From Thiomonas sp. FB-Cd (GTDB lineage: Bacteria; Pseudomonadota; Gammaproteobacteria; Burkholderiales; Burkholderiaceae_C): a stretch of 64,000 nucleotides of DNA. The stretch lies in contig NZ_JPOE01000002.1 in the NCBI RefSeq assembly GCF_000733775.1, positions 1,054,001 to 1,118,000 on the forward strand. Reading direction: 5' to 3'. The position numbers and the translations under genes are program-made. Below are positions 5,106 through 30,344 of this stretch, piece after piece; the first letter of the stretch is position 1; the number at the start of each line of letters is the position of its first letter. The notes under the pieces are model-generated. The model had not been told where the DNA came from and searched no databases. It was given only the letters and a program-made list of their open reading frames with translations.

Positions 5106-5173
5106 CCGGATCCGTTGTTGGCACCCACACGCTTTTACGATTAGCCGCTTTTGGACAGCATGATTGGGTTTTC

Positions 5174-5214: not shown

Positions 5215-5248
5215 GCAGAGCATTCGCCTTTTGCCCCTGGAGACCGCC

Positions 5249-5602: not shown

Positions 5603-5654
5603 CCCGGCCCGACGCGCAGCGTTGCTTAGGCAACGCCGACCGGGCAGGAGGGGG

Positions 5655-7663: not shown

Positions 7664-7740
7664 CTTAATACTGTAAACGGCGTGCGAGCTAGACTGAGTG
7701 GTGTCTTTTATTATTGCAGCTTAACGTCGTTACTGGTAGC

Positions 7741-9177: not shown

Positions 9178-9193
9178 CGGCGGGAGAGTTCAT
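9155..9193 (+). repeat. IS605-type right end with terminal hairpin (copy 2, complete element)
   Basis: CCGCTA (9155-9160) pairs with TAGCGG (9175-9180), with an inner AACGC-TCT-GCGTT stem and one bulged C, followed by CGGGAGAGTTCAT. Compared with copy 1 at 751-792 the stem bases differ but pairing is kept, pointing to selection on structure. The expected guide, the bases after 9193, is the start of yhaV. Confidence 0.78.
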
Positions 9194-9699
9194 TGAGAGC
9201 GAGCAAGCCCGCGCCATTGGTCATTCATGGCTGGACGGTTTTTGCCCACCCACTGTTCCTCGCGCAACTTGAAGCCTTGGCCCAGCAGGTCGAGACATTC
9301 AAGCAAAAGGACCCCGTCGGGTATGTGAAGAAAAACGCCAGCAAGCGACTGGCGGCGATCACCAAACTGGCGTTCGACGTCATCCCGCAAGACCCGACAC
9401 GGCCAGAGTACCGCCAAGGCAACACGCTTGGTGAAGATCACAAGCACTGGCTCCGGGGCAAGTTCTTCCAGCAATACCGGCTGTTCTTCCGCTATCACGC
9501 ACCCAGCAAGGTGATCGTGTTCGCTTGGGTGAATGACGACGACACCAAGCGCGCCTACGAGAGCAGCGACGACGCCTATCGGGTGTTCCGCAAGATGCTG
9601 GAGAGCGGTCGTCCGCCAGACGGCTGGAGCCAGTTGCTGGCCGAGGCGCACGCCGAGGGGCAACGCCTGCGGCGGTTCGCCGCAGGCGTTGCGCCGTGA
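9193..9699 (+). CDS. yhaV: YhaV-family ribonuclease toxin, start displaced by insertion
   Basis: The toxin of the PrlF-YhaV module, a ribosome-dependent RelE-fold ribonuclease. Matching blocks are GWTVFAHPLFLAQLEALAQQ, KNASKRLAAITKLAFDVIPQ, DPTRPEYRQGNTLG, KFFQQYRLFFRYH, FAWVNDDDTKRAYESSDDAY and RVFRKMLESGRPPDGW. The native ATG would overlap the prlF stop; the insertion split that ATG, leaving TTG made from the element's last T plus TG. Everything after the first codon is intact. Expression now depends on transcription through or out of the element, so dosage relative to the antitoxin has probably changed. A cell carrying this must still neutralise any toxin made. Confidence 0.88.
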   Translation: MRASKPAPLVIHGWTVFAHPLFLAQLEALAQQVETFKQKDPVGYVKKNASKRLAAITKLAFDVIPQDPTRPEYRQGNTLGEDHKHWLRGKFFQQYRLFFRYHAPSKVIVFAWVNDDDTKRAYESSDDAYRVFRKMLESGRPPDGWSQLLAEAHAEGQRLRRFAAGVAP

Positions 9700-9738
9700 G
9701 GCTTGGCTTCTGCCAAGAACAGCGTTATCGGGCGACGC

Positions 9739-12424: not shown

Positions 12425-13222
12425 ATGACACCAGATTCGCTGCTCACCATTGAGGAAGCATCCAAGTTTCTTAACGTGAGTAAAACCTCGTTGCGCCGGT
12501 GGACCAAGTTGGGTCAGTTGCCGTGCGTGCGAATTGGGGCGCGGCAGGAGCGACGCTTCAAGACGTCGGATCTCCAGTCTTTGCTGCTTGAGCCACCGGC
12601 GGTGCACACGCCGGCCCATAAGGTGCCGGCCACCGGGCGCTTGGCCCCGCTCGACGCACTCGACGAAGCCGCGGCGCAGAGCATTCCGCGCCATGTCTGT
12701 CTGCATTACCGCACGCCCAGCGAACTCTGGGCTTTGTTTCTCCCCTACGTGAAGCAGCATCTGGAGCGCGGCGCTCCCATGTTTTACATCCACCGTGAGG
12801 GGTGCGGCGACGAGGTGATCGCCGAGTTGGCCGCCCTCGGCTATAACGCGAAGGAACTCATCGCGCAGGGTCGCTTGACGCTCCTTGAGCCCTCCCAGGC
12901 GTACCTCAGGGACGGACGGTTCTCCGCGCAACGCATGATTGAGTTCATGGACGCGGCAATCCAGGAGCACGCCCGGCTCGGCTTTGGTGAGATGCTGATC
13001 GCTGGGGAAATGAGCTGGTACCTGAGCGGCGCGGAAGGGGTGCAGGAGATGATTCCCTACGAGGACGCGCTCAACGACATGCTTCTTCGCTACCCCGATG
13101 TCACGATCGTGTGCCAATATGACATCAATCGACTTTCCGCCGAGATCAACCTGGGGGCGATTTGCTCGCATACCCATGTCCACATGGCGGACCGATTCGT
13201 GCAAGGCTTTTACGGGAAGTAA
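12425..13222 (+). CDS. MerR-type HTH plus MEDS domain regulator (DcmR-like)
   Basis: A 265-residue transcription regulator. Residues 5-55 form a MerR/excisionase-like winged helix (LLTIEEASKFLNVSKTSLRRW, then RFKTSDLQSLL). The rest (about 85-265) is a MEDS sensor domain: HVCLHYRTPSELWALFLPYVKQHLERG, the HREG segment, then DVTIVCQYDINRLSAEI near the end. DcmR, the best known relative, represses dichloromethane dehalogenase, and MEDS domains are thought to sense small hydrocarbon-derived ligands. AAGGA lies 8-9 bases before the ATG. It points toward the 3' end of the epoxide/CoM operon, which runs the other way, and is a plausible regulator of it; that link is inferred from proximity and family. 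Confidence 0.82.
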   Translation: MTPDSLLTIEEASKFLNVSKTSLRRWTKLGQLPCVRIGARQERRFKTSDLQSLLLEPPAVHTPAHKVPATGRLAPLDALDEAAAQSIPRHVCLHYRTPSELWALFLPYVKQHLERGAPMFYIHREGCGDEVIAELAALGYNAKELIAQGRLTLLEPSQAYLRDGRFSAQRMIEFMDAAIQEHARLGFGEMLIAGEMSWYLSGAEGVQEMIPYEDALNDMLLRYPDVTIVCQYDINRLSAEINLGAICSHTHVHMADRFVQGFYGK

Positions 13223-13322: not shown

Positions 13323-13360
13323 CCGCGACAACGCCATGCGTGTCGCGGCCCGCGGATTCA
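13323..13360 (+). repeat. Solitary IS605-type right-end hairpin remnant
   Basis: CCGCGAC (13323-13329) pairs with GTCGCGG (13342-13348), with an inner ACGC-CAT-GCGT stem and one bulged A. This is the layout of the right end at 9155, with different bases but preserved pairing. The bases before it encode WETPATTPCV, matching the TnpB tail ETPATTLCV. The terminal GGGAGAGTTCAT is degraded. It lies between two converging genes and may also slow transcription from both sides. Confidence 0.55.
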
Positions 13361-14695
13361 GGCCATTTTGTGCAGGACATCTCCGGCGAGTTGGACGGGC
13401 GCCAGTACGGGAGAAAACGGCGGGGCATAGGCCAAATCCAGATCGGCAAGATCGTTGGCGTGCAGCTTGCCCCAGATTGCGGTTGCCAGAATATCCACAG
13501 TCTTGTCGACTGCATCCTCCCCGCTGACTTCTCCCCCCAACACAAGGCCGGTGCCGCGCTGCACCGTCAGGGCAATCTTCAGCGTCCGGGATCCGCGCAT
13601 GTACCGCGCACGGCTGGGCGCCTCGAGGACTTCCGTGACAGGATCGAAACCCGCGGCCAGCGCCTGCGCATGGTTGAGGCCGGTGCGCGCCACGGCGAGT
13701 TCGAAGACCCGGAAAATTGCCGTGCCGAGCACACCGGGGAAAGCGGCGACGCCCCCCGTCATATTGATGCCGGCGACCCGACCCTGACGATTGGCGACAT
13801 CGCCAAGTGGCATCCAGACGGGCGCATTCGTCAGCCAATGTCTTGACTCGACACAGTCGCCGGCTGCATAGACATGCTCCACATTGGTGACCATGCGGGT
13901 GTCGACGACGATGGCGCCGGTCGGGCCAAGGGCCACGCCCGCCGCTGTGGCCAGCTGCGTGCGGGGCCGCACCCCCATGGCTGCCAGCACGACGTCCGCC
14001 ACCAGCGCCGTGCCGTCCGCAAGCACCACCCGCCCCTCGTCAAGACCCACAACGCGCTGCCCGGTGAGCACCTCGGCGCCGTGCTGCTCCAAGGCGTCAC
14101 GCGCCGCCTCCCCAATGACCTCGGCAAAGTTTGGGAGCAGGCGCGGCATCATTTCCACAAGGCACACCTGCAGCCCACGCCGCAACAGCGTTTCTGCCAT
14201 TTCCAGTCCGATGTAGCCGCCCCCAATGATCACTGCGCGCTGCATGGTGGGCAGGATCTGCGAAAGGTGATCAGCATCGGCAATGGAGCGCAGGTACGCA
14301 ACCACGGGCGTGGAACCGATTCGTGGAATATCCAGCGCGATGGCTTGGGCGCCTGTGGCCAGCAGCACGTTGTCGTACGGCTCGTCATAGGTGCGGCCCG
14401 TTGCCCGATCGCAAATACGTGCGCTGGCGCGATGCACGTCGAGTTGCTCGACACGCTGCGACGTTCTCACCTCAATGCGGTCGCGCGCAAATGCCTCCGG
14501 CGTGCGGGCGATGAGTTTGTGGCGATCAATGCCCTCATCCTGAGCCAACCAATAAGGCAGCCCGCAGGCCGAGTACGAGATGTTCAACTCATCTTGGACC
14601 AGCACGATATGCGCAGACGGATCCCTTCGTCGTGCGACTGCTGCTGCTTTCGCGCCAGCAGCCACACCACCGATGATCAAAAGCCGATTGGCCAT
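13358..14695 (-). CDS. CoA-disulfide-reductase/NADH-oxidase-like flavoprotein
   Basis: A 445-residue FAD- and NAD(P)H-binding enzyme of the single-cysteine disulfide reductase group. FAD binding is seen in LLIIGGVAAGAKAAAVARR, the active-site Cys in ISYSACGLPYW (residue 44), NAD(P)H binding in AVIIGGGYIGLEMAETLLRR, and the second FAD site in NVEHVYAAGDCVE. The C-terminal dimer domain ends KLHANDLADLDLAYAPPFSP, also usual for this group. Known members reduce CoA disulfide, polysulfide or oxygen. As the last gene of a CoM operon it could plausibly keep CoM or CoM-CoA mixed disulfides reduced; that substrate is inference. It lies 60 bases after the aldehyde dehydrogenase. Confidence 0.82.
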   Translation of the reverse strand: MANRLLIIGGVAAGAKAAAVARRRDPSAHIVLVQDELNISYSACGLPYWLAQDEGIDRHKLIARTPEAFARDRIEVRTSQRVEQLDVHRASARICDRATGRTYDEPYDNVLLATGAQAIALDIPRIGSTPVVAYLRSIADADHLSQILPTMQRAVIIGGGYIGLEMAETLLRRGLQVCLVEMMPRLLPNFAEVIGEAARDALEQHGAEVLTGQRVVGLDEGRVVLADGTALVADVVLAAMGVRPRTQLATAAGVALGPTGAIVVDTRMVTNVEHVYAAGDCVESRHWLTNAPVWMPLGDVANRQGRVAGINMTGGVAAFPGVLGTAIFRVFELAVARTGLNHAQALAAGFDPVTEVLEAPSRARYMRGSRTLKIALTVQRGTGLVLGGEVSGEDAVDKTVDILATAIWGKLHANDLADLDLAYAPPFSPVLAPVQLAGDVLHKMA

Positions 14696-14755
14696 GACAA
14701 GATGTCTCCCGGTTGCAAATGGCGATGAAAGCGTTGAAGCACGCCGAAAGCGTGC

Positions 14756-16182
14756 TCAACGACCATGCGCCGCCCAGTGGCCGGCAAACAGGCTTTCATC
14801 CGTGATGGGCGTGGCAGTTGGGTTCACCAGGCGCGAGACCCACGTGTAGTTCAAGAAGTGCCGAACATTGACGTTTTCCGTGGTGATGTTGCCCCCCAGG
14901 TTCCACAGGACAGGGACAGGGTGTAGGGCATGCCATTGCGCGGGCTGCCAGCGCCTTCATTCAGGTCTTGATTGACCATCACCCGCGCCGTGCGCGTGCC
15001 CATCGCGAGCGCCTCGACGTGGGCGTCATTGGTGGTGTGAATGCCGCACGTGTGCCCGAGGCCTTGGTAGCTGGTGATGGCGTTGACCAGATCGACGGCC
15101 TTCGCGATGGAGCCGGCATAGCGGTAGGCAGCAAGAACCACGGACAGTTTTTCGCCGGAGAAGGGGTGCTCGGGGCCGGTGCCGTCGTCCTCGACGATCA
15201 GGAACGAGGCGCCCTGCGGAATCTCGAACCCGGCAAGCTTGGCAATGTGCGAGGCCGATTTTGCGATGACATCCAGCACCGGGATCGCTTGGCCTGGAGT
15301 GGGCCACATGAGCCGTTGCAACTTCGCCTTTTCGCTGCTGTTGAGAACGTACCCGCCGCGCGCCGTCAATTTGGTCAGCAGCGAGGCATAGACAGATGCA
15401 TGCGCAACCAGCGCGTTGTCGGCCAGGCAACTCGTGGCGAAATCGAACACCTTGGCGCGCGCGATCATCGCGGCCGCGTCATCGAGATCGCCCGTCTCGT
15501 CAACCACGTGCACGCCGTTGCCGACGCCAACGCCGTATGCTGGCGTGCCCGAGCTGTAGGCGGCCTTGACCATCGCCTCGCCCCCGGTCGCCACCACCAG
15601 GTCCGCTTGCCGCATCAGCTCAGCCGTCTTGCCAATCGATGGGCGCGTGACGATCTGGATCAAATCCTCGGGAGCCCCCACTTTTTTGCAACCGTCGCGC
15701 ATGAGCTGCACGGCCAGTGCGGACGTCCCCGCCGTGCGTGGGTGTGGCGCAACGATGATGGCGTTGCGGCCCTTGAGCGCTGCCAACGCATTCACCGGAG
15801 GCGTGGCATCCGGGCCCGTGGTTGGAATGAGAGCGGCAATCACGCCGACGGGTTTTGCGATCTTGACGATGCCGCGCTCGGGAATCTCCTCGCACACCCC
15901 GACCGTTTTTTGCCCCTGCATGTCCCGAATGGTGCCGGTCACGCGGTTGCGGATCTTCATGACCTTGGATTCGTAATTCCCAAAGCCGCCTTCGTCCACG
16001 GCGGCCCTGGCCAGCGCTTCCTTGTTCTTGACGACGTTCCACCCAACGGCAAGCACGAGCGCATCAACCTGCTCTTGCGTGTATTGACTGATGGCCTCTT
16101 GCGCCGCACGCGCGCGCTGCATGAACGCGGCGATCTCCGCTTGAGAATCGGCTTTTGCTGCAGTTGTATCGGTCTGACTCAT
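14756..16182 (-). CDS. CoA-acylating aldehyde dehydrogenase, C-terminus frameshifted
   Basis: An NAD(P)-dependent aldehyde dehydrogenase of the acylating type (semialdehyde or sulfoacetaldehyde dehydrogenase-like), forming acyl-CoA from an aldehyde. Landmarks are PVGVIAALIPTTGPDATPP, VVATGGEAMVKAAYSSG and the catalytic Cys in FDFATSCLADNAL. The plain frame stops at 14851 after CGTWGATSPRKTSMF. If the run of six C at about 14891-14896 had one more base, the frame would continue GGNITTENVNVRHFLNYTWVSR to a stop at 14756, the expected family ending, about 475 residues in all. It is therefore a one-base deletion in a homopolymer: a recent mutation, a sequencing error or a slippage switch. The start overlaps the upstream gene's stop as ATGA. 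Confidence 0.85.
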
Positions 16183-18245
16183 GTCTCCATCCCTTTTGTG
16201 CGCATGCGCGCGTCGACAACAAGAAAACGATCGCCGCTTGCCAGCAGCGGGTTCACATCCACCTCAAGGCACCACGGGGCACGCGCGAACATTTGCGAAA
16301 ACGCGCTCACCAGGCGCGCCAGCGCCTGGATGTCCACAGCCTTGGCCCCCCGGTAGCCTTCCAGCGCCCTGGCCCCGCGCAAGCGTTGAATCGCCTGGTG
16401 CGCCGCTTCGGGACTCAGGGGCGCAAGCGCCATCTGCACGTCCGCGAGGATCTCCGTCCACACGCCCCCGAGCCCAATGACCACCAGCGGGCCGAATGTG
16501 GCGTCCCGAATCCCGCCAAGAATGATCTCGATACCGGGCTGCGCCTGCGCCTGGACCAGAATGGGGCCCGGGCCGAGGCGCGACTCCAGAGCCTGGAAAC
16601 AGGCTTGCACGGAGCTCGCATCGCGCAAACCCAAGTGCACCGCATGCGCTTCGCTTTTGTGGAGCAAACCGGGCCGGATCGCTTTGAGCACGCAGGGCAT
16701 CCCGACCGCGTGCGCCGCGCTTGCGGCGTCCCCCGCGTCATGAGCCAGGCGCCACGCCGCCACGGGCATGCCCCAGAGCTCCAATTCGCCGAAGGCATGC
16801 TCAGGCGCCAACCAGCCATCGGCTTGCGGGGCATGGCGCTGAGCAAGCGCCCCTGCCTCCAAGGATGGCGCCATAGGCGCCGTGCGCTCCCCGCATAGCG
16901 CCAGCACGCGCGCTGCGCGCGCAGCCCATTCATGACACGGGATCCCGGCCGCAAGCAGCTTGCTGCGCACCGCCGCACCCTCGGCCGGCGCCACCCAGCA
17001 CACGTGCACCGGCTTGGACGTGCCCAGCGCCTGTGCCTGGCGGGTTTCGGCAATGATCGCATCGGCCACGGCCATGTCCAGCGCCGAGCGTTGAAGCAGA
17101 ACCGGCACAACGGCATCGATTTCGTCACTGGCCAGCAGTGCACGCAGGCTTTGCCCATACATCTGCGCAAAGCGTGGCCAGGCCGTGGTGACATCGACCG
17201 GATTGAGCGCCGATCCATGCGGGGGAAGATGCTTGGCCACAGCCGCCTGGAGCGATGGGGATAGCGCTGGCACCTGCAACCCCTGCGCCTCGCACAAGTC
17301 CGTCAACTCGGCTCCGGTGCCTCCGGAGTTCGTCACGATCGCGACCCGGTTGCCCTTCCAGGGCGGCTGCATGTCAAGCGCCGCAGCCACATCAAACAGG
17401 GTCATCCCGTCATCCACCATGATCGCCCCCGCCTGGGTGAGGGCGGCGTGGATCACGCCATAGCTCTGCGCCAACGCTGCGGTGTGGCTTGACGTGGCAC
17501 GCGCGCCGCCTGGAGTGCGCCCGGTTTTCAGGATGACCACCGGCTTGGACGGCGTAATGGCCCGAAGCGCCCGCACCAAACCCGGCCCATCGGCGATCGA
17601 CTCCAGCACCAGTGCGATGACCCGTGTGTGCACATCCTCCCCGAACACGCCCAAGGCGTCGAGCTCATTGATGTCGGCCTTGTTACCTGCAGAGAGCACC
17701 TTGGAAAAGCCGATAGCCCCCTCCTGGGAGCGCGAAAACGCCGCCATGCCATACGAGCCGCTTTGGGTGAAAAGGGACACACCGCCTGTCTTTGGCAGGC
17801 CCATGGCCAGGGAGGCGTTGAGCGCGCACCGCGTGTTGAGCAGACCAAAGCAATTGGGGCCGATCAGGCGCATTCCACCGGCTTGCGCCACGGCCAGCGC
17901 CTTCGCTTGCAGGGTGGCGCCATCATGGCCCGTCTCGGCAAACCCGCCGCTGAGGACCAGGGCCGTGATCACGCCTGCGCGCACGCAATCCTCGAGAATT
18001 GCCGGCACCGAGGCAGCGGGCGTGACGATCACCGCCAGATCGACCGGATCCGGCACGTCTGCGACGCAGGGATAGGCACGGCTGCCCAGGATGTGCGCGA
18101 CTTGCGGGTGAATGGGCACGACCTCGACCGACGTGGCGGCGGACAGGTTGTCCCACAGCAGGCGTCCTGCCTTGCCGGCCTCGGCTGACGCGCCAATCAG
18201 CGCGATGCGCCGTGGTGAGAACGTGGCCTGTGCCCAGTTTGTCAT
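16179..18245 (-). CDS. ADP-forming acyl-CoA synthetase (acetate-CoA ligase type)
   Basis: A 688-residue single-chain NDP-forming acyl-CoA synthetase, interconverting acyl-CoA, ADP and phosphate with acid, CoA and ATP. The order is a CoA-binding Rossmann domain (RRIALIGASAEAGKAGRLLWDN), succinyl-CoA-ligase-like domains with the phosphohistidine region ARATSSHTAALAQSYG, then a C-terminal ATP-grasp domain (GMPCVLKAIRPGLLHKSEA, later GGVWTEILADVQMALAP). ATG 18245 is chosen because it follows the previous stop by four bases and precedes the domain start; an upstream start would run into the neighbouring gene. With the acylating dehydrogenase it could conserve energy from a CoA thioester, or activate an acid product of the pathway. 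Exact substrate unknown. Confidence 0.85.
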   Translation of the reverse strand: MTNWAQATFSPRRIALIGASAEAGKAGRLLWDNLSAATSVEVVPIHPQVAHILGSRAYPCVADVPDPVDLAVIVTPAASVPAILEDCVRAGVITALVLSGGFAETGHDGATLQAKALAVAQAGGMRLIGPNCFGLLNTRCALNASLAMGLPKTGGVSLFTQSGSYGMAAFSRSQEGAIGFSKVLSAGNKADINELDALGVFGEDVHTRVIALVLESIADGPGLVRALRAITPSKPVVILKTGRTPGGARATSSHTAALAQSYGVIHAALTQAGAIMVDDGMTLFDVAAALDMQPPWKGNRVAIVTNSGGTGAELTDLCEAQGLQVPALSPSLQAAVAKHLPPHGSALNPVDVTTAWPRFAQMYGQSLRALLASDEIDAVVPVLLQRSALDMAVADAIIAETRQAQALGTSKPVHVCWVAPAEGAAVRSKLLAAGIPCHEWAARAARVLALCGERTAPMAPSLEAGALAQRHAPQADGWLAPEHAFGELELWGMPVAAWRLAHDAGDAASAAHAVGMPCVLKAIRPGLLHKSEAHAVHLGLRDASSVQACFQALESRLGPGPILVQAQAQPGIEIILGGIRDATFGPLVVIGLGGVWTEILADVQMALAPLSPEAAHQAIQRLRGARALEGYRGAKAVDIQALARLVSAFSQMFARAPWCLEVDVNPLLASGDRFLVVDARMRTKGMET

Positions 18246-18249
18246 GGGG

Positions 18250-19245
18250 TCACACCATCCCATGGGCGAAAAGCGCAGGCTCCCCGCCCGTGTGGATGAA
18301 GACTGTCGGCGCCGTGGTGCTCCAGTGTCCACGACGCGCCAACTCGGTCACTCCCGCAAACGCCTTGCCCGTGTACGTCGGGTCCAGAAACACACCCTGT
18401 GTGCGCGCTGCCAGAACGATCGCCGCGTTTCCCGCCGGGCTTGGGACGCCGTAATCAGAACCAATGAACCCGTCGTGCACGATGATTTCATCGCCGGGCA
18501 CGGCATTCGTCACACCCAGCAGCGCGGCCGCCTCCGCGATCAGGCTCGACACCCGCGCGCGCACCTCGGACGGCGGGCGGCTCACCGTCACGCCCTCGAC
18601 CGTCCAGGGCGCGCCCCAAAGCGCCGTTCCAAGCATCCATCCCGCCAGCGTGGTTCCCGAACCCACGGCCAGCACGACATGGCGTGGCGCGATGCCGCGG
18701 GCGATGCATTGCTGCAGCAGCTCCTGCGCCGCCAGCACATGGCCCAGCACCCCCAGCGCGCAGGCGCCCCCACGGGGAATGACGTAGGGAACATGGCCGT
18801 CTGCAAGCCACTGTTGAGCTTCAATGCGCATTGCATCGTCGACCTGGCCACGATCGGCATGACCCGTAAATCGGGTCTGGGCCCCGACAAGACGTGTCAA
18901 GCGCAGGTTGCCCTGCGCTGCAGCGGGCTCCTGCCCCCAATACACGGCGACAGCCTGCATGCCGAAGGCGGCTGCGCACGCCGCCGTCGCCCGCACGTGG
19001 TTCGACTGGGCCCCGGCCCCGGTGATCATGACGTCGGCGTTCTTGCCCAAGGCGTCTGCCAGCAGAAACTCCAGGCCGCGGACCTTGTTGCCGCCAAATC
19101 CGAAGCCGATGAGCTCATCGTGCTTGATCCACAACGCGGGGACACCCACGGCGCGGCCGAGCACGGGAGCTGGAGTGAGCGGCGTGGGCAGGCTGCCCAG
19201 GGGATGCCGCGCAATGGCCAACAACCGGGTCAAGGCTGGATTCAT
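18250..19245 (-). CDS. xcbE: PLP enzyme of the D-cysteine desulfhydrase/ACC deaminase family, XcbE-like
   Basis: A 331-residue fold-type II PLP enzyme. The PLP lysine is in FGFGGNKVRGLEFLLADAL, followed by TGAGAQSNHVRATAACAAAFG, the substrate-binding segment of this family, and VLAVGSGTTLAGWMLG, the phosphate-binding turn. Close annotated relatives are D-cysteine desulfhydrases and ACC deaminases. Its place directly after two aspartase/fumarase-superfamily genes and a ComA homologue matches the order xcbB-C-D-E of bacterial CoM biosynthesis in Xanthobacter autotrophicus Py2, where the PLP enzyme acts late, in delivering the thiol. The symbol rests on this order. The start overlaps the previous stop as ATGA. 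Confidence 0.8.
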   Translation of the reverse strand: MNPALTRLLAIARHPLGSLPTPLTPAPVLGRAVGVPALWIKHDELIGFGFGGNKVRGLEFLLADALGKNADVMITGAGAQSNHVRATAACAAAFGMQAVAVYWGQEPAAAQGNLRLTRLVGAQTRFTGHADRGQVDDAMRIEAQQWLADGHVPYVIPRGGACALGVLGHVLAAQELLQQCIARGIAPRHVVLAVGSGTTLAGWMLGTALWGAPWTVEGVTVSRPPSEVRARVSSLIAEAAALLGVTNAVPGDEIIVHDGFIGSDYGVPSPAGNAAIVLAARTQGVFLDPTYTGKAFAGVTELARRGHWSTTAPTVFIHTGGEPALFAHGMV

Positions 19246-20654
19246 GCGAAATGCTCCGCAGGCAAGCGTGCAGGGGATCGCACCGGCGTCGCCGCGGGCG
19301 ATGGCCCGGCCGCCAGGACCCGATCGACCATGGCAGCGCAATGTCCGGTATGACGCGCATAGTCGCTCAGCCGCTCCAGGGTTGCGGCGTCGAGATGACT
19401 GCGCACCGTTGGATCCAGGCGCAGCACCTCCAGGAGCTGTGTGCCTTGCTCGCGCGCTTGCGCGGACAGTGCGTAGAGCAGCCGATGTGCGCTGTCGCGC
19501 CCGATGGTGGGGGCCAGCTCCAGCATCACCGCTTCGGAAAGCACAAAGCCGCCACTGGCCTCAAGATTGGCGCGCATGCGTGCCGCATCCACCTCGACGT
19601 TTGCCAGCAGCTCGCCAACGAGCTCGATGGCGCGCCCGGCGAGCATTGTGGCTTCCGGGATCGCGTGCCACTCCGTTTTCCACGCGCGCCCATCGCGCTC
19701 ATGATCCTGAACCTGGCTTTCGGCCACGGCCGCTGCGAGATGGCGCACCAGGCGTGCCAGCGTGCCCAGATGCTCGGCAATCTCGGGGTTGCGCTTGTGC
19801 GGCATCGTGATGCTGCCAACCACGCCGCGCACAGCCCCCTCGCGCACTTCGGCGATTTCGCTGCGCTGGAGGTTGTAGATCTCGTGCCCAATGCGATCGG
19901 CCGTGCCGGTGACGAGCGTGAGCAAGGCGCACCATTCGCCAAGGACATCGCGACTGCTGGTCCAGGAAATGCCCGGCGCAGCCAACCCGAGCCGCTCGGC
20001 AACCCGCCGCTGGACCTCCAAACCACGGGGTCCCATCGACGCCACGCTTCCCACACCCCCGCAGAGTTGCACGACATCCATGCGTGAGCCAGCCTGCACC
20101 ATGCGCTCGCGATGGCGCCGGAATTCGGCCAGCCAGCCCGCGGTCTTGAATCCGAACGTGATGGGCAGCCCGAGCTGGCCATGCGTGCGCCCGGCCATCA
20201 CGGTGGTGCGATGCGCACGCGACAGTCCCACCAGTGCCGCGTCGACCGCGTCCAGATCCTCCAGCATGCCCGTGCGTGCCGCTCGCAGCGCCAGCATCAG
20301 CCAGGTGTCCGTCACGTCCTGCACCGTGGCTCCCGCGTAGACCCACTGGGCCGCCGACGCCGGCAAGCGGCGCTGCACACACTCAATGAGCCCCTGCGTC
20401 GAGTGACCGCTGGCCTGCCGACCCTTGCGCACCTCCTCCAGGAAGGCCGTGTCCACAGGCACGCTGCGGCAAACTTCGGCAATGGCCTGCGCGGCCTCGC
20501 CCGGGATCAACGCAAATTCGCCTTGCACCTCGGCCAGCGTCGCAATGATGTGCAGCCAGGCCTGCGTGCGGGGAATCTCTTCGAAGACAGCCCGAAGACG
20601 CGAACTGCTCCACAACGCGGCATAGACGATCGAGTCCATCATGGTTGCGGCCAT
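19242..20654 (-). CDS. xcbD: Aspartase/fumarase-superfamily enzyme, XcbD-like
   Basis: A 470-residue protein of the fumarase/aspartase superfamily, closest in style to adenylosuccinate lyase and carboxymuconate cycloisomerase. The signature loop is GSITMPHKRNPE; the catalytic-site segments are TVMAGRTHGQLGLPITFGFK and VYAGATVQDVTDT. These enzymes add or eliminate groups across a C-C bond next to a carboxylate. By gene order it corresponds to XcbD of the bacterial CoM pathway, which works on a sulfonated substrate; the substrate assignment is inference and the order of C and D could be swapped. The gene begins one base after the stop of the preceding gene. Confidence 0.8.
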   Translation of the reverse strand: MAATMMDSIVYAALWSSSRLRAVFEEIPRTQAWLHIIATLAEVQGEFALIPGEAAQAIAEVCRSVPVDTAFLEEVRKGRQASGHSTQGLIECVQRRLPASAAQWVYAGATVQDVTDTWLMLALRAARTGMLEDLDAVDAALVGLSRAHRTTVMAGRTHGQLGLPITFGFKTAGWLAEFRRHRERMVQAGSRMDVVQLCGGVGSVASMGPRGLEVQRRVAERLGLAAPGISWTSSRDVLGEWCALLTLVTGTADRIGHEIYNLQRSEIAEVREGAVRGVVGSITMPHKRNPEIAEHLGTLARLVRHLAAAVAESQVQDHERDGRAWKTEWHAIPEATMLAGRAIELVGELLANVEVDAARMRANLEASGGFVLSEAVMLELAPTIGRDSAHRLLYALSAQAREQGTQLLEVLRLDPTVRSHLDAATLERLSDYARHTGHCAAMVDRVLAAGPSPAATPVRSPARLPAEHFA

Positions 20655-20655
20655 C

Positions 20656-22188
20656 TCACGCCTCCCTTGCGAAATCGTGGGCCCAGCGCAGCAGATTGGC
20701 CTGCGCGCCGGCGCTGGCCTGCTGCGCCGCGGTGAGCCAAGCGCTCATCTCGGCAAGGCTTTGCCGGATGCTCTCAAACATGACCTGCATTGGCACGTCG
20801 GCTGCGCCTCCTGCACCCAGGCGCGAGGCGATCGCCGCGCGCGGGTCGGTCGCCTGCCCAAGCCAACCCGGGTCAATGGCGTGTGCGTGCCCGGTCACTT
20901 CAAACAGCGCCTGCTCCAAGTCGGCAGGCGTCAGGCCTGTTGCGGGCCGGCCCGCGTCGTGCAGCATGCGCGCCAACGAGCCCACCACACGGTGCGCGCT
21001 GCGCGGGTCCAGGCCGGCGTGCAGCACGAGCAACTCGGCCACATCGGTGGCGAGCACAAAGCTGGTCTCGAGCGTGCGCTCACCCCGTTCGGGGCGGAAC
21101 GTGAGCGTGCCCAGGCTCGCACGCATCAGTTGTGCCGCGCCCGTGGCCAGGCTCAGCGCCCGTGGCAGCTCGCCGTAGGCCAGAAGGCGGTTGTCCATTT
21201 GCCCCGAAGGTGTGCGCCCCGACGCAGCCAGCGAAGCCTGGATGCCGATGCACTGGTTGGCGGCCGAGCGGATCCACGCCAGGGCGTACGGATTCTTCTT
21301 CTGCGGCATGATCTTGCTCGAGCGCGTGAGCGCATCGCCCAGCTCGACCAATCCGAATTCCTGGGTGTTGAAGATCATGAGATCCTCGGCCAAGCGATCC
21401 AAGTTGATCAACGCCGCGACCACGAGGGCGAGTCCCTCGATGGGGCCGTCGGCCTGCCACATCGCATCACGCGCGTGCATGACCACACCGTCAAAGCCAA
21501 GCAGGTCGGCCAGGCGTTGGCGATCGGGTGCGAGACGCGATCCGTTGGTGCTGCCGCACCCTGCCGGGCTGCGGTTGTAGCGCTCATGGAAGCTGCGTGC
21601 CCGGTCCAGATCCCGCAATAGCGGACCTGCAAAGCCCAGCAGGTAGTGGGCCAGCGTCGTGGGCTGGCCCGCTTGCAAATACGTATAGTCGGCCATCAGC
21701 GCGTGGCGGTGCTCACCGGCCGTGTCCGCGATCTGATTGCCCGCTTGCAGCAGCGCTTGCATCAGTGCGCGCACGCGTTCGCAGACGACCAGATGCAAGG
21801 CGGTTGTGGTGGCCTCGCGCCGCGCCCGCCCCAATCCCAGCCACCGGGCTGCGGGTGTGCGCGCGAGCAGCCAGGACTCGCGATTGGTGTAAAGGTCCCC
21901 CTGGGCGGCGTCCGGCTCGAGCTGCTGGGGATGGGCATGGAGCGTCAGCAGGGCGGCCATGAGTTCGCGCCCTTCATCGCGCGGCAAGACGCCGCCGGCA
22001 ATCTCGGCAATTGCATGGGCCATGTCCACGAGGCCCATCGCCTGCTGCAGGCCGCGCTGGTGGTTCAGCTCGTCAGCGAAGGCATGCTGGATCAGGTCCG
22101 CTGAGGGGGGAGCTGCGATGCGCCCGCCCACCTCGAGCACGTCGCGAGCAAGATCGGTTGCCATGGCGCCCGGCTCCGGCTTATACAT
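20656..22188 (-). CDS. xcbC: Aspartase/fumarase-superfamily enzyme, argininosuccinate-lyase-like, XcbC-like
   Basis: A 510-residue member of the same superfamily but of the argininosuccinate lyase branch: [21 protein letters not shown] and the signature [21 protein letters not shown]. In Xanthobacter, XcbC1 is a superfamily member that eliminates phosphate from phosphosulfolactate to give sulfoacrylate, and it directly follows the phosphosulfolactate synthase gene, as here. The family helix 2 context [17 protein letters not shown] differs from true argininosuccinate lyases. ATG 22188 overlaps the previous stop; ATG 22164, with GGAG eight bases upstream, is an alternative start. Confidence 0.82.
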
Positions 22189-23062
22189 GGGTCAGCCCTG
22201 CCGGGACGGCGTCGGGGCTGGGCTCGAGCTGTGCCGGAATCCAGTCGCCGGAGGCGGCCAACCCGTCGGCGATGGGCTTGAGCGTTTCAAAGCGCAAACC
22301 GGCGCGCAAGGCCTCCAGTGCCAGCACATCGGTTGGCGCAATGTTCCCCAATCCCACGTTGACCCCGAAGCGCTCGACCAGCGCGGCCTGCTGGCTTTTC
22401 AGGGGCGCCTCCCAAATCAGGCGCTGCACGCGCGGCCCCATGGTGGACTCGAATATGTCGAAGGCTCCGCCAGCGACGAGGCCCGCGTCGTCGTAGACCC
22501 CCACGCCCTTGCCCGACTCGCGTCCTTCCACGATGACCCATTGCGCGCCGTCGTCCAAGTCCCTGAGAGCCTGTTGCGCAAGATCCGCGAGGGGCGGCTG
22601 CGCCTTGGGATCCTTTTTTCCGACTTCGGAGACGACGACCAGGTCCACATCACGCGCACACTCGATCACGCGTTGCCGACGGTGAGCAGGCAAGTCGATC
22701 GTGCCATCGGAGATTTCCACGGCGGTGAAGCCGGTTTCAACCGCGCAATCCATGTACACCCGACAGTGGTGCTGCAAGATGGCCGCTTCGAACAGGGTTC
22801 CGCCAGGGCACGTCATGATCCCGTGGCGATTGATGAGGGCAATCTTTTGCCGAAGCACCTCACGCTTGAGAAACACGGAGGTGCCGAAGCTGAACTTCCA
22901 CAGATCAATGAACTCGCCGGCGACCTCGAGCACATCCTCGGTGGCGCGCAGGCCAAGGCCCGTGTCGATGATCATCGTCAGCCCGCTTTGACGCGGAGCC
23001 GTTGCGCGCTGCCGTCGCAAACTCGCAATGACCGCCAGATCCTCCCATGCTCTACCGGTCAT
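22181..23062 (-). CDS. xcbB: Phosphosulfolactate synthase (ComA/XcbB family)
   Basis: A 293-residue ComA-family TIM-barrel enzyme, which adds sulfite to phosphoenolpyruvate to give (R)-phosphosulfolactate, the first committed step of CoM synthesis in this route. Typical blocks are [76 protein letters not shown] and [18 protein letters not shown]. The family is mainly archaeal; in bacteria it marks CoM-making alkene oxidisers, although spore-formers use relatives for sulfolactate. The start chosen overlaps the upstream stop by 11 bases. Confidence 0.9.
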
Positions 23063-23978
23063 GGCCCACCTCGTCCACGAGTTGGCGCAAGGCCCGCTCC
23101 ACCATGGCCAGGTCCGTGCCCCATGGCACCACCATGGTCTGGCCATCGCGCTCGATGTCGAACTCCAGCAAACAGCACTTGAGCATGGTCAGCTCGCTGC
23201 GGTTGCCTGCGATGCGTCGCGGGCACATCTCGATGCGCGGGGGCTCGTCGCCGTAGTAGTGGCGGTGAAACTGCAGGCTTCGCTCGCATCCGATCAGGGT
23301 CCAGGCCCGGCGCTCGGCCGGGCGCTCGTCGAGGAAGCTCACATGCCCGCCGATCTGATCCAACCCTCCCGAGCGGCAGGGCACCAGATATTCCTCGGCC
23401 GGCGTCTTGCGGGCCAATTCGGCAATCTCGATGCGCTCGAGCTCCACGACAATGGCCGGCAGATCGGCGTAGCTCAGCACGTGGCGAACCAGGTCGAAAA
23501 GCTTGGGAGGCTCGGGCGGGGCCACTTCCACAATGCGCAGCACCAGTGGGTCGGGGTGATGAATGAAGTTGATATGGTCGTAGCGGCCCTGCACCACCAC
23601 GGTGCCCTGCCCCGTCACCCCGTTTTGGCGCGCACACAGCGCAAGCGCCGAGCGGTTTGCACAGTCGGTGGCGGCATCGTGCACGAACGTCGTGGTCTCG
23701 GGCAGGCTGAGCACCTCCACCGCGATGATCGGCGAAAACAGGGGCTCGTCCGACCTTCGCTCCACGGCCACCACGGCGAGCGCGCCGCTGGCGACGCTGC
23801 CGCCGTGCAGCACGATGAAGTTGGTACGGCGGTAGGCTTCGCGGCCCATCAGGTGCTGCGTGATGGCCTGCTGCGTCATCGCTCCGGCATAGGGCTGCAC
23901 GCTCACCTGCCGATAGGGAAGCGGCACCAGGTTGCGTTGGTTGCGCAATCCCGCGATGGAACCTTGGGCTTTGTCCAT
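23052..23978 (-). CDS. Unrecognised conserved-looking protein within the CoM operon
   Basis: I do not recognise this 308-residue protein. It has no signal peptide or membrane span. Several segments look like a soluble enzyme or cofactor-binding protein: NFIHHPDPLVLRIVEVAPPE, LPAIVVELERIEIAELARK, EEYLVPCRSGGLDQIGGH and RSLQFHRHYYGDEPPRIEMC. Conserved-type Cys and His residues recur. A good AAAGGA site precedes the ATG. It lies between the CoA-transferase genes and the phosphosulfolactate synthase gene, overlapping the latter by 11 bases, so it must be co-expressed with CoM biosynthesis. A role in an incompletely assigned step (for example decarboxylation) or in CoM handling is possible but not shown. 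Confidence 0.75.
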   Translation of the reverse strand: MDKAQGSIAGLRNQRNLVPLPYRQVSVQPYAGAMTQQAITQHLMGREAYRRTNFIVLHGGSVASGALAVVAVERRSDEPLFSPIIAVEVLSLPETTTFVHDAATDCANRSALALCARQNGVTGQGTVVVQGRYDHINFIHHPDPLVLRIVEVAPPEPPKLFDLVRHVLSYADLPAIVVELERIEIAELARKTPAEEYLVPCRSGGLDQIGGHVSFLDERPAERRAWTLIGCERSLQFHRHYYGDEPPRIEMCPRRIAGNRSELTMLKCCLLEFDIERDGQTMVVPWGTDLAMVERALRQLVDEVGHDR

Positions 23979-23992
23979 GGCCGTTTCCTTTC

Positions 23993-24838
23993 TCAGGCGG
24001 GACCGATCACAAAATGCCGTTGACGCTCACTGGCACGCAACTCCTTGACGTGCACGTTCAACGGATCGAGCTTGCGCAGGAAGGCCACGCTGTGCGCGTC
24101 GGGCAAGGGCAAGGTTCTGACCTCATCGGCCAGCCGCAGCGCAAAACCGGTGTTTTGCGCGACGTCGTCGGGCGTGACATCCGGGTACAGACCACACAAG
24201 CGCAGATGCCCCTCGGCGTCGAAGTCAAAGAGCCCCAACTCGGTGAGCAGCCAATCGGGCCCTCCCCCGCGATGGCGCAGGTCTTGGCGGGTGCGCCCAT
24301 CGACCGATCGGTGCCCCAGATTGGTCACGAAGTCGCAGCGCTCCACCAGACGAAACTGGCGGCTTCCATCCTTGCCCACCGCCGCCCGGTGCGCGGTGGT
24401 CCACAGGGTCAGATGGCCGACATCGCACGACAGGTTGCATCCGCCACCGCCGCCGGGCAATTTGAGCTTGAGCGCCTCGGCGCCCAGGCGGGTGACGTTC
24501 GCATTGCCCCAGGGGTCGATCTGCAGCCCGGACAGAAACATGCGATCAAGCCGCCCGGACGCGGCCAGATCGAAGAGCTCTTCAATGTCCAGCGCACACT
24601 CGGCGCCCCGGTCGAGCGCCCAGTCGTTGGACGTCGGGGTGAGAAAGGGAGGGGTGGGATTCAGGCCATAGGTGGCACCGGCAACGAACACCAGATTGGG
24701 GGCGTGCGTGTGCTTGGCCAGATGCAGCGCGAGCTGAACCAAGGGTGAGCCGTAGCCATGAAAGACGACCGTACCGTCGACCACCGTTTGCGCGAGGTTG
24801 TACACCATTGCCTCGCCAAAAGTGCACGTGTTGCTCAT
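23993..24838 (-). CDS. CoA transferase subunit B (glutaconate CoA-transferase type)
   Basis: A 281-residue protein resembling subunit B of family I CoA transferases of the glutaconate type (GctB-like): TFGEAMVYNLAQTVVDGTVVFHGYGSPLVQLAL, DRMFLSGLQIDPWGNANVTRLG and the glycine-rich LPGGGGGCNLSCDVG, with DFVTNLGHR later. Such enzymes move CoA between acyl groups through a glutamyl thioester. It overlaps subunit A by ATGA. GctAB-like pairs are also found in ethene and vinyl chloride operons near epoxyalkane:CoM transferase genes. Here it could activate acetoacetate made by the carboxylase, but the acyl specificity is not readable. Confidence 0.8.
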   Translation of the reverse strand: MSNTCTFGEAMVYNLAQTVVDGTVVFHGYGSPLVQLALHLAKHTHAPNLVFVAGATYGLNPTPPFLTPTSNDWALDRGAECALDIEELFDLAASGRLDRMFLSGLQIDPWGNANVTRLGAEALKLKLPGGGGGCNLSCDVGHLTLWTTAHRAAVGKDGSRQFRLVERCDFVTNLGHRSVDGRTRQDLRHRGGGPDWLLTELGLFDFDAEGHLRLCGLYPDVTPDDVAQNTGFALRLADEVRTLPLPDAHSVAFLRKLDPLNVHVKELRASERQRHFVIGPA

Positions 24839-25779
24839 GCCGACTCCTCACCGTACAAACGCATCCATGCCGCATCGCTATGGCTCCAACTCGCCAGCCG
24901 CGATTGGGTCGCCTTGCCGCCCACCCGTTTCAGGTAGTCCTGGTGATCCGGGCAATCGAGCACATAGGGTTCGAGGTACTGCGTGGCAAACGCCTGCGCG
25001 CCGGCACTGGCCGCTGCGAAATACAGCGCGGTGTGGGGCCGGTCATAGGCATACATCGGATAACACGCCGTGGGATGTGCGCCAAAGGGCACCTCGGCAA
25101 GGGCGGCCACGTAGAAATAGGGGATGGTGGCGCCGCCGAGCGCGCGCAGCTCGGCGTTGCTGACGATGCGCTCAACCGTGGCCACGACCTTCTTCGCCGC
25201 ACGGCTTGCCAGAAGATCGGCCACGGGCGGCCCCTCGATGCGCAGATTGCCGTGCGCATCCCCGTACTGGGCGTGAATCAGGGCGACGTCGGGCTGCAGC
25301 GCCGGCACGAGCAACAGGGGGTCGCCGGTATAGGGGCATGGCATGGCGACGTACTCGGGGTGGAGGCCCTCGAAGCTTGTGCCGCGCACCGAGCGTACAG
25401 GCAGGAAGGGAAGCCCATACGCGGCGGCCCGCAATTGCTGCACCACGGTGTAGCAGCAGCTATCGGCGACTTCCACGGCCCCCGATTCGCACGCCCGCCG
25501 GAAATTGGGCGCCAGGCCAAAGTCCTGCTCGAATCCCACGTAGCTCTCGGCGCTCGTGGCCACGCAGCCGCCGCCGCAGAGCATGTCAATGTCGATGCCG
25601 TGCGCGGACCCGACCACCTTGAGGCCTTTGCGTCCGGCGCGAATGATCGCGCGGATGGCTGCCATGGGCTCGCGCGACGAAAGGCCGCCACCAACGGCGA
25701 GCCAATCGCCGTCCTTGATGTGCGCCACGAGCTCGTCCAGATCGACGCGCTTGTCAAGCGCTGGATAGGTTGCGTTCAT
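24835..25779 (-). CDS. CoA transferase subunit A (glutaconate CoA-transferase type)
   Basis: A 314-residue partner of the following gene, resembling GctA-type subunits: [46 protein letters not shown], and [27 protein letters not shown], the usual end of the N-terminal CoA-transferase fold. The start overlaps the stop of the S-hydroxypropyl-CoM dehydrogenase gene as ATGA, tying this enzyme to epoxide metabolism. Substrate inferred only from context. Confidence 0.8.
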
Positions 25780-26543
25780 ATGGCCGTCATGCCTCCGTCG
25801 ACCGCGACGATGGACCCCACGCAGAAGCCAGCGGCATCGGACAACAAAAAGGCAACGGCTTCGGCAATGTCATCGGGCGTGCCAAAGCGGCCGATGGGAT
25901 ATTTCGCCAGGCGCCTGTTCATCGCCTCCTCGCTGGTGTCGCTGCCCAGCAGCGAGCGCCCCATGGCGGTTTCGGCAACGGTGCCCGGGCACACGCAGTT
26001 CACGCGCACCCCATGCTTGGCGTATTCAGCGCCCATCTGGCGCGTCAGATTGACGATGGCGCCCTTGGCTGCGCAGTACGCGGCCATGTTCGGGATGCCC
26101 ACAAGTCCGGCGACCGAGCCCACGTTCACGATCGCGCCGCGCTTTGCAGAGACCATCTCGGGCAGCACGGCCTTGGATGCCAGGAATGTGCCCAGGACGT
26201 TGACGTCCCAGACGCTTTTCCAACTCTCGAGCGTGGAATCATGCACGGCACCGAATCCGGCGATCCCTGCGTTGTTGAAAAGCCCGTCGATGGCGCCCAG
26301 CGCCTCGTGCGCCGCCTGCACTGCCCGGCTCACGCTTTGCTGGTCGGTGACATCGCACACGAAGCCATGCGCGTTGGCTCCTTGCTCCCGCAATGCGCCA
26401 GCCGCGCTTTGCGCCACGGCGCCGTCCCGATCCAGAAGGGCCACGGCCGCGCCTTCGCGCACCAGCGTGCGCGCCGTGCGCAAGCCGATCCCTGCTCCGC
26501 CGCCCGTGATCACCACATGGCGTCCTGTCAATGTGCCTTGCAT
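25776..26543 (-). CDS. xecE: 2-(S)-hydroxypropyl-CoM dehydrogenase
   Basis: A 255-residue short-chain dehydrogenase. NAD-binding [10 protein letters not shown], catalytic Ser143, Tyr156 and Lys160 ([20 protein letters not shown]) are present. It closely follows the S-specific hydroxypropyl-CoM dehydrogenase of Xanthobacter: NNAGIAGFG with VHD, then [21 protein letters not shown] and the ending VDGGMTAI. Arg211 and Lys214, which bind the CoM sulfonate in that enzyme, sit at identical positions. It oxidises the S-alcohol CoM adduct to 2-ketopropyl-CoM with NAD+. ATG 26543 follows AAGGAG; the upstream extension is unrelated sequence. Confidence 0.93.
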
Positions 26544-26592
26544 CGTTATCTCCTTTTGGTCTGTTGTGTTCAATGCCCGGTGTGACCATCCA

Positions 26593-28940
<2,348 letters not shown>

Positions 28941-29144
28941 TTAAAAGCTGCAGCAAGGGCACGTGCTGCGGTATGTCCCCGAGCCGTCCCACGGATGGCC
29001 ATGCGTGATGGGCATTGCTTTTGGCATGACCGCCTGGCTGGCGCACTGCGAGCACACCCAGACATCGGGCGGCTTGGTGCCAGCCATGACCAGACTCAGG
29101 AACTGGTGCCCACAGTCTGGGCACTCGAGCGCGAGAACGGGCAT
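28941..29144 (-). CDS. Small zinc-ribbon protein
   Basis: A 67-residue protein with CPDC near the N-terminus, CSQC in the middle and CPCC at the end, probably one or two zinc knuckles of the FmdB/rubredoxin-like sort. ATG 29144 starts directly before the first motif (MPVLALECPDCGHQF). It lies between xecA (75 bases away) and xecC (42 bases away) on the same strand. Function unknown. Possible roles are zinc delivery to the zinc-dependent CoM transferase or regulation; neither is shown by the sequence. Confidence 0.7.
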   Translation of the reverse strand: MPVLALECPDCGHQFLSLVMAGTKPPDVWVCSQCASQAVMPKAMPITHGHPWDGSGTYRSTCPCCSF

Positions 29145-29219
29145 GGCACTGTCTCCTTGGGGCTGCATTGCGAGCGGGGAGCGCCCCCTTCGGATGACGC
29201 TCCGATGGATGTGCCGGCC

Positions 29220-30344
29220 CTAGGCCGCTTTTTTCTGCGCGGCCAGCTCGTTGCGCACGAGCTGCGTTCCCGCCACCAGCGCATGCAGCTTGTCCTTGGC
29301 GATGTAGCGCTGCAAAAGAATGAGCCCGCAGTCGGTTGTGACGCCCAGGCGATCGGCCGGCACGTACTCCAGCAGCTTGCGGATGCGCGAGGCCACCTCT
29401 TCCGCGGTTTCGGTGATCGTGCTTTTGACGTCGATGACGCCGGCCCAGAAATCCACGTTGGGTGGAAGTGGATGCTTTTTGATCACGTCCAAGCCGGACA
29501 GATCGTCGGCGCGCCGCCCACAGTTCTCCAGATTGAGGACATTGATGTGTGCCTCGTAGGCCTTGGGAATGATGGTGGCCGTGGCGGCCGGCTGCTCGCC
29601 CTTGCGCTGTGTCAGGTCAAAGATCTCGCCGGACTGTGCGGTGGAGTCCGGCATGTAAGCCGGCGTGCCACCCCAATTTCCCCAGCAGACATGCACGATG
29701 ATCTTGGCCTTGGTGATGCCTTCGACAGCGCGGTTGAAGGCTTCGATCGCATAGTCCTCGAAGAAGTACGGCCACGTGAATTCGTCGATCTGAATGAAAT
29801 CCGCACCAATGGCCTCCACCTCCTTGAGGTCCTCATTGATGGCTGCGGCCATCGCCATGGCGCGGTCACGGCTGGATTTGTAGTGCAAATCGTTGGTGCA
29901 TTGCGCCAGAACCTGAATGCCCGTGTATTGCACCTTGATCGGCTTTTGGGTCGCCTTGCGCAACGCCTTGGCCTGCTCGACCATCAAGGCGCCATGGCGC
30001 TTGATGGGCTGGGTCAGCGTGCCCGCATGCAATCGGCTGTAGATCGGGAAGCCAAGATGGCCGCCTTTGAGGTCGTACCCCAGGCGCTTCATGTAGTAGT
30101 ACAGCACCTGGTCCGCGTAGTTGTCCCCGTGCACACGCGCATCGGAGATGATGTCCAAGCCTGCTGCTTCCTGATCAGCCACCACCGCATTGATGACGTC
30201 TTCAAGCGCCTCCTGCCACATGGAATCCGGCGGCTGCTGATCGCCGCTGAATGATCGTGAAAAGGTTGCGTCCCACCAGCGAGGATTGGGGTAGTTGCCC
30301 ACCATGCTGGTCGGAATCAAGATCTCCTTGGTGCCAATTTTCAT
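29220..30344 (-). CDS. xecA: Epoxyalkane:coenzyme M transferase
   Basis: A 374-residue zinc enzyme of the MetE/methylcobalamin-CoM transferase barrel family that opens an epoxide with the CoM thiol, the entry reaction of the pathway. Zinc ligands are His218-x-Cys220 (IIVHVCWGNWGG) and Cys339 (TTDCGLILL), as in known epoxyalkane:CoM transferases. Other matches are PTSMVGNYPNPRWWD at the N-terminus and ADFIQIDEFTWPYF. ATG 30344 has AAGGAG seven bases upstream. It is the first gene of the 15-gene operon, which implies that epoxide consumption and CoM synthesis are expressed together. Confidence 0.94.
   Translation of the reverse strand: MKIGTKEILIPTSMVGNYPNPRWWDATFSRSFSGDQQPPDSMWQEALEDVINAVVADQEAAGLDIISDARVHGDNYADQVLYYYMKRLGYDLKGGHLGFPIYSRLHAGTLTQPIKRHGALMVEQAKALRKATQKPIKVQYTGIQVLAQCTNDLHYKSSRDRAMAMAAAINEDLKEVEAIGADFIQIDEFTWPYFFEDYAIEAFNRAVEGITKAKIIVHVCWGNWGGTPAYMPDSTAQSGEIFDLTQRKGEQPAATATIIPKAYEAHINVLNLENCGRRADDLSGLDVIKKHPLPPNVDFWAGVIDVKSTITETAEEVASRIRKLLEYVPADRLGVTTDCGLILLQRYIAKDKLHALVAGTQLVRNELAAQKKAA

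Follow-up and report, generated by a model that had tools for sequence, protein, structure and literature searches.

The closest described systems to the locus studied here, a predicted operon for coenzyme M (CoM)-dependent epoxide catabolism in Thiomonas sp. FB-Cd, come from Xanthobacter autotrophicus Py2, Nocardioides JS614, Mycolicibacterium NBB4 and methanotrophs. Py2 carries two clusters on pXAUT01. Cluster 1 runs xecA, a small open reading frame (ORF), xecC, xecD, xecE and xcbA-E, and is adjoined by an alkene monooxygenase (xamo-MEDS-xecA...). Cluster 2 runs SDR1-SDR2-CTa-CTb-XcbA-B-C-D-CoA ligase-CoADR and holds remnants of xecA and xecC (SDR, short-chain dehydrogenase/reductase; CTa and CTb, together CTab, the two subunits of a 'CoA transferase'; CoA, coenzyme A; CoADR, CoA-disulfide reductase). 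The JS614 and NBB4 ethene clusters contain CoADR, SDR, CTa, CTb, CoA ligase, EtnE and Xcb genes, with monooxygenase genes inside the cluster. The epoxyethane clusters of methanotrophs, as described in passages of Toppings 2024 (PMC11507031), comprise EtnE, an SDR, CTab, CoM genes, an acyl-CoA synthetase, a sulfoacetaldehyde-type dehydrogenase and a MEDS regulator, and no alkene monooxygenase. CoM synthesis by XcbA-E starts, according to a section of PMC8727900, from phosphoenolpyruvate, sulfite and a sulfur donor. We analysed 64,000 nucleotides of the FB-Cd genome (NZ_JPOE01000002.1, positions 1,054,001 to 1,118,000; hereafter the window) on a contig of 2.78 Mb. SufB, encoded in the flank, fits the betaproteobacterial host that an earlier note had supposed: its identity to named Thiomonas proteins is 90-93%, with the following group no higher than 83% among the 120 matches listed. 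On its minus strand, at 13358-30344, lie 15 closely packed genes that run from xecA at 30344 to a CoADR homologue at 13358.

This operon is very probably a complete, laterally acquired set for CoM-dependent epoxide catabolism. The operon type is already known, and the window adds a further intact member. Judged by strand and spacing, the 15 genes would form a single transcript. The earlier note, made from the sequence alone, had placed CoM synthesis and epoxide carboxylation in one cluster, and this is borne out by the Xcb models, the Xec residues and the matches to solved structures. Every gene that it named was found in place on the one strand, and its count of fifteen holds; the gene that it left unnamed encodes a zinc ribbon. 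The CoM synthesis genes that it gave are also present, but it counted four where the set has five, having overlooked xcbA. The features are as follows, with profile scores in bits, family cut-offs in brackets and identities to Py2 proteins.

12425..13222, plus strand: divergent regulator with a helix-turn-helix (HTH) and a MEDS (DcmR sensory) domain; PF14417 130.8 bits, HTH_17; Py2 counterpart beside xecA 37% identical
13358..14695, minus strand: CoA-disulfide-reductase-like flavoprotein with redox Cys44; TIGR03385 354.5 (578.8), ACGLPY motif; 62% to the Py2 second-cluster protein
14851..16182, minus strand: CoA-acylating aldehyde dehydrogenase, SauS-like; NF047625 458.9 (600); solved relatives are acylating dehydrogenases
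16179..18332 (ORF bounds, start uncertain), minus strand: ADP-forming acyl-CoA ligase; ATP-grasp_5, Succ_CoA_lig, CoA_binding_2
18250..19245 (ORF opens at 19341; probable start M33), minus strand: xcbE, pyridoxal phosphate enzyme of CoM synthesis; NF052537 452.5 (450)
19242..20654, minus strand: xcbD, aspartase/fumarase family; NF052536 615.4 (600)
20656..22188, minus strand: xcbC, aspartase/fumarase family; NF052535 633.5 (575)
22181..23146 (ORF bounds; start probably ~23062), minus strand: xcbB, phosphosulfolactate synthase, ComA type; TIGR03849 309.5 (280)
23052..23978, minus strand: xcbA (DUF7714); NF052538 466 (150)
23993..24838, minus strand: CTb, glutaconate-CoA-transferase-family B subunit with Ala53 at the catalytic Glu position; phmmer to AibB variants ~1e-28, fold match 5n00 E 2e-18
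24835..25779, minus strand: CTa, A subunit; PF01144 96 bits; GctA, AibA and IpdA among solved matches
25776..26543 (ORF opens at 26693), minus strand: xecE-type (S)-hydroxypropyl-CoM dehydrogenase; 63% to Py2 XecE; 4gh5; R211/K214
26593..27345, minus strand: xecD-type (R)-hydroxypropyl-CoM dehydrogenase; 58% to Py2 XecD; R152, R196
27342..28919, minus strand: xecC, 2-ketopropyl-CoM oxidoreductase/carboxylase (2-KPCC); 67% to Py2; 1mo9 4e-240; F503/H508
28941..29144, minus strand: 67-amino-acid (aa) zinc ribbon, CxxC...CxxC...CxCC; Py2 counterpart Xaut_4866
29220..30344, minus strand: xecA, epoxyalkane:CoM transferase; 76% to Py2 XecA; zinc ligands

The epoxide-processing enzymes carry the residues that define their families. 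XecA has the MetE fold with His-x-Cys...Cys zinc ligands and is close to the characterised Py2 enzyme; the ligands, H218, C220 and C339, are invariant in all 75 aligned rows. 2-KPCC is recognized by a redox Cys pair together with Phe/His where a His/Glu dyad is usual. The window enzyme has C86/C91 and F503/H508, which correspond to C82/C87 and F501/H506 of Py2, and the Py2 structure 1mo9 is its best solved match. XecD has both of its arginines, and XecE (255 aa) has R211 and K214; we take these four residues to have a role in sulfonate binding. The diagnostic residues that had been listed for xecA, xecC, xecD and xecE were thus all seen in alignment or sequence. Since the 2-KPCC is of the Phe/His type and both dehydrogenases are present, the window operon would be of the propene type. 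All five Xcb proteins score above the curated cut-offs of their NCBIfam models within the one cluster, and XcbA-E would make CoM in the host.

Relative to Py2 cluster 1, the window shares the order of xecA, small ORF, xecC, xecD, xecE and xcbA-E at 49-76% identity, but its CTab, CoA ligase, CoADR and type of acylating dehydrogenase have no match there. The xcbA match of cluster 1 is split over two frames in the record (L085, 24774-25642), and the table used lists no gene for it. Cluster 2 follows the window order and its CTb likewise has Ala, but its run lacks xcbE and the acylating dehydrogenase and gave no zinc-ribbon match. The comparison of gene order with pXAUT01 that had been proposed therefore finds the window colinear with both clusters, of which cluster 2 is broken. 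In the JS614 and NBB4 clusters EtnE is just 45-49% identical, CTb keeps Glu in all three, and the zinc ribbon was not found. The 15 methanotroph loci of this analysis, among which Methylohalobius does not figure, differ from the window in having Phe/Tyr in 2-KPCC and no xecD. Passages of Toppings 2024 (PMC11507031) take the sulfoacetaldehyde-type dehydrogenase as a functional analogue of XcbA; the window operon, in contrast, has both proteins, and because they coexist the SauS-like dehydrogenase is not needed as an XcbA substitute here. Similarly, CoA-transferase/synthetase genes are said in part of PMC6440738 to accompany ethylene, not propylene, degraders, whereas the window holds both sets.

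To place the operon among its relatives we scanned species genomes with the XecA alignment and, of 165 confirmed loci, retained the 80 best; XecA exceeds 50% identity in 74 of these, and the remaining six are weak. Flanks reached at most 10 kb, so that absence of a gene at a locus is partial evidence. XecA identity was 62-99% in 73 of the 74 loci and 58% in one, with two loci partial. Lateral spread, which the earlier note had suggested, agrees with the patchy occurrence of XcbA, present in 1 of 27 other genomes of the same genus, 0 of 8 of the same family and 0 of 24 of the same order. The one same-genus genome with XcbA (G003) aligns to the window between 1104 and 29813 in separate blocks of 89-94% identity, with 2196-3795 and 5096-9732 missing. 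A genome with no XcbA match (G021) has the left flank up to 12353 and then a repeat at its contig end, which leaves the insertion site unproven. The surroundings of the operon include genes for a DDE transposase, IS605 OrfB, a YhaV toxin and a PRTRC/ParM-like protein. Two 451-aa ORFs in opposite orientation (2360-3715, a DDE transposase by Pfam, and 5929-7284) have the same codon-position GC content, flank an aldo/keto reductase and are absent from G003. The novelty that the earlier note gave to this find was overstated: metagenome-assembled genomes (MAGs) of Rhodoferax, Rhodocyclaceae and REEB268 (L006, L058, L069) have the order xecA-xecC-xecD-xecE-CTab-xcbA-D within the limits of each locus, so same-order relatives exist in public genomes, and methanotroph clusters without an alkene monooxygenase are described in PMC11507031, in the passages cited.

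The 2-KPCC alignment (47 rows: 45 loci, the window and Py2) revealed a recurrent substitution. Cys82, Cys87 and Phe501 (Py2 numbering) are kept in every row; at position 506, 32 rows have His and 15 have Tyr. All 15 Tyr506 loci are methanotrophs by title and none has xecD, which is present at 27 of the 30 His loci. The best XecD match genome-wide did not exceed 44% in the 15 Tyr genomes, some of which are MAGs, compared with 54 and 68% in two His controls. On a quick tree the change from His506 to Tyr is needed twice, and starred branches force both: one in Methylococcaceae and kin (13 rows) and one in Methylocystis (2 rows). Methylocapsa aurea (L073) and a USC-alpha MAG (L040) are methanotroph exceptions with His506 and xecD. 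Tyr506 may be an adaptation to an achiral C2 substrate.

A zinc-ribbon gene was found at 66 of the 74 xecA loci, in every case on the same strand as xecA. It lies no more than 200 bases 3' of xecA at 45 loci, within 600 bases 5' at 11 and further 3' at 10. At three of the eight loci that lack it (L024, L026, L068) the contig ends close to xecA, and the absence looks real at the others (L005, L025, L037, L042, L045); no match was obtained at the six weak loci (L079-L084). Four Cys residues are present in all 68 rows; in the C-terminal CxCC the last two are kept in 67 and 65 rows and the first in 56. A profile built from xecA-linked copies, with at most 22 first-pass candidates scored per genome, matched two of 274 genomes of the class, FB-Cd itself and G273. 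These are the same two that the XecA profile matched, and in both the zinc ribbon directly follows xecA.

The CTab pair departs from the family whose name it bears. CTb is closest to AibB, then to GctB and IpdB, by sequence and by fold, and library scans gave no Pfam or NCBIfam match for it. The GctAB fold of class I CoA transferases is present (for CTb by a model with a predicted local distance difference test score, pLDDT, of 75; for CTa by sequence only), and the catalytic Glu of subunit B is replaced by Ala53. Across 58 rows (57 loci and the window) this position is Ala in 38 and Glu in 20. A quick tree built without that column makes the Ala type a single change (support 92, not starred), with Chloroflexota Glu-type rows as its sister. 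The Ala-type clade is proteobacterial by titles, the exceptions being L014 (Pseudomonadota, Glu-type) and L071 (Nitrospira, Ala-type), whose sequence there is identical to that of L070. Counting window-homologous genes only, xcbA comes next at 36 of 37 Ala-type loci (gaps of 7-168 bases, once 852), L070 having no xcbA called before its contig end; at the 20 Glu-type loci the next gene is CoA ligase in 18, 2-KPCC in one and none in one. Five annotated relatives that we fetched have Glu in three haloarchaeal B subunits and Val in two of roseobacter type. We also searched 15 genomes picked because their locus had no 2-KPCC. Thirteen have no 2-KPCC match genome-wide, and all 13 carry xecA and CTab, which makes it unlikely that CTab is a CoA transferase whose action comes only after 2-KPCC.

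Collectively, we propose the following route. XcbA-E would supply CoM, with which XecA would open short terminal epoxides, and XecD and XecE would oxidise the R and S hydroxyalkyl-CoM products, respectively. The Phe/His 2-KPCC would then cleave the ketone off CoM and carboxylate it, epoxypropane yielding acetoacetate. Activation of the resulting acid is the probable task of the CoA ligase, a C2 (epoxyethane) branch that of the acylating aldehyde dehydrogenase, and recycling of CoM or CoA disulfides that of the CoADR homologue. The epoxides may arise by adventitious oxidation, for instance by a phenol hydroxylase, or be external. The fluxes and substrate range drawn here are predictions from gene content.

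The source of the epoxides bears on what the operon is for. A dedicated alkene monooxygenase was not found beside it, as the earlier note had said, nor was one found genome-wide; two FA_desaturase-family proteins stayed outside this examination. P450 gave no match genome-wide, and neither did the AMO search, which matched nothing in the controls either. The genome's matches to the diiron-oxygenase model PF02332 fall in two places within one phenol hydroxylase operon ~150 kb from the window operon, together with DmpM, a reductase, a catechol-2,3-dioxygenase-like gene and an XylR/DmpR-type regulator. As these are the sole PF02332 matches, the operon may mainly detoxify epoxides made accidentally by the phenol hydroxylase rather than support growth on alkenes, a role with a precedent in Methylohalobius, where passages of PMC11507031 treat the particulate methane monooxygenase as the epoxide source. 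We regard this as quite possible, if short of probable: a full carboxylating set with both dehydrogenases and a CoA ligase suggests carbon use, the phenol hydroxylase is distant and under its own regulator, and the gaps just named in the oxygenase search count against it. For the zinc ribbon, the most likely role is to assist XecA as a zinc partner. That it is instead an FmdB-type transcriptional or redox regulator, or a thiolate epoxide sensor, and not an XecA assembly factor, is possible but on balance improbable. A weak FmdB/Zn_ribbon_8 similarity does exist, the window protein falling under both cut-offs (TIGR02605 18.7 versus 31.3; PF09723 29.9 versus 34.4) and L017 alone of five homologues tested exceeding that of Pfam (39.9), and at Acidimicrobiia loci the gene lies ~5 kb from xecA; but the close 3' placement at most loci, the invariably shared strand and the failure to find it at the JS614 and NBB4 loci speak for a tie to XecA.

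The earlier note had assigned product handling to a CoA transferase. This is not borne out in that form, because the catalytic position here is Ala and CTab is retained in 13 genomes without a 2-KPCC match. CTab has a glutaconate-CoA-transferase fold but is most likely not a transferase; our first guess is a decarboxylase or lyase acting on a CoA thioester. AibB C56A heads the CTb fold list, almost level with other AibB entries, and AibB with Ala at position 56 still decarboxylates, according to part of PMC7756340. Publications do label CTab a CoA transferase, in passages of PMC11507031 (methanotrophs), PMC6440738 and PMC8727900 (which names malonate), and conservation between the Glu and Ala types extends over much of the protein. 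We nevertheless consider it unlikely that CTab still transfers CoA to acetoacetate, malonate or carboxymethyl-CoM through another residue or a direct mechanism, given Ala in 38 of the 58 rows, the residues of the annotated relatives, the 13 genomes mentioned and a PDB title in the CTb fold list, 'CtfAB E46S active site mutant inactive'. Several points weigh against our own account. The CTb model is middling (pLDDT 75, TM ~0.62, rmsd 7-8), the AibB loop is one residue shorter, so that its Cys56 maps to 53-55 depending on the alignment, and the proposed proton source of AibB, Glu72, maps to Asn71 of CTb, a residue conserved in all 40 rows, so that a decarboxylase becomes a less convincing guess; AibB is the nearest solved relative, yet neither Cys56 nor Glu72 is kept. 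Outside CTab, the acylating dehydrogenase scores under the SauS cut-off (458.9 versus 600), a Cys of it aligning with one in 8cei that is presumably catalytic, and the CoADR homologue reaches 354.5 against 578.8, though redox Cys44 is present.

XcbA itself has no evident structural counterpart. Its AlphaFold2 (AF2) model is confident (pLDDT 92.4), and sequence search of the PDB gave no match, nor did Foldseek against the PDB at E<=0.001. Seven Cys/His residues (H135, C201, C231, H238, C252, C268, C269) are invariant across the 40 aligned rows, and a metal site might be guessed at. In a control genome, Methanosarcina acetivorans, the XcbA family model matches under its cut-off, possibly an archaeal relative.

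Other cluster forms were also seen. A minimal cluster of xecA, zinc ribbon, CTab, xcbA-E and acylating dehydrogenase occurs at L060, L071, L072, L077 and L078 (two titled Candidatus Porisulfidus, three near-identical MAGs), with no 2-KPCC match genome-wide. In L077, the one checked, a flavoprotein precedes xecA, and third-position GC is 0.29-0.46 in cluster genes against 0.73-0.79 in neighbours, which suggests recent transfer. Burkholderiales-type clusters (L007, L009, L010, L075) have xecA and CTab-xcb, again with no 2-KPCC match genome-wide; between these lie a second MetE-family gene (L007, L010, L075) and E1-type thiamine pyrophosphate dehydrogenase genes (checked in L007 and L010), and another fate of the CoM conjugate is possible. 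Elsewhere in the window, ATP synthase genes at 42978-50903 (two alpha/beta-family, A, gamma) presumably form a second operon of N-ATPase type, and 53065-57165 and 57664-62181 each encode a very large GGDEF/EAL protein that has PAS, GAF and protoglobin-like domains as well; one of the two has hemerythrin in addition.

We tentatively hold three proposals jointly, aware that all may well not stand together: that XecA has a dedicated zinc-thiolate partner in the zinc ribbon, which would donate zinc or sense epoxides and is conserved across three phyla or more; that the proteobacterial CTab is a repurposed, Glu-less enzyme with a different CoA-thioester chemistry; and that 2-KPCC was twice refashioned in methanotrophs, by His506 to Tyr, to suit a C2 substrate. 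The cluster of which the model organism Py2 has a broken copy is intact in the window, so the full set becomes testable within a single operon. The window also casts doubt on the proteobacterial CoA-transferase label, brings forward the zinc ribbon as an unnamed conserved gene worth testing, points to a recurring natural change in the 2-KPCC active site of methanotrophs and singles out XcbA as a CoM-synthesis protein without a clear structural relative. Together, these four points open parts of epoxide and ethene metabolism in bacteria to direct testing.

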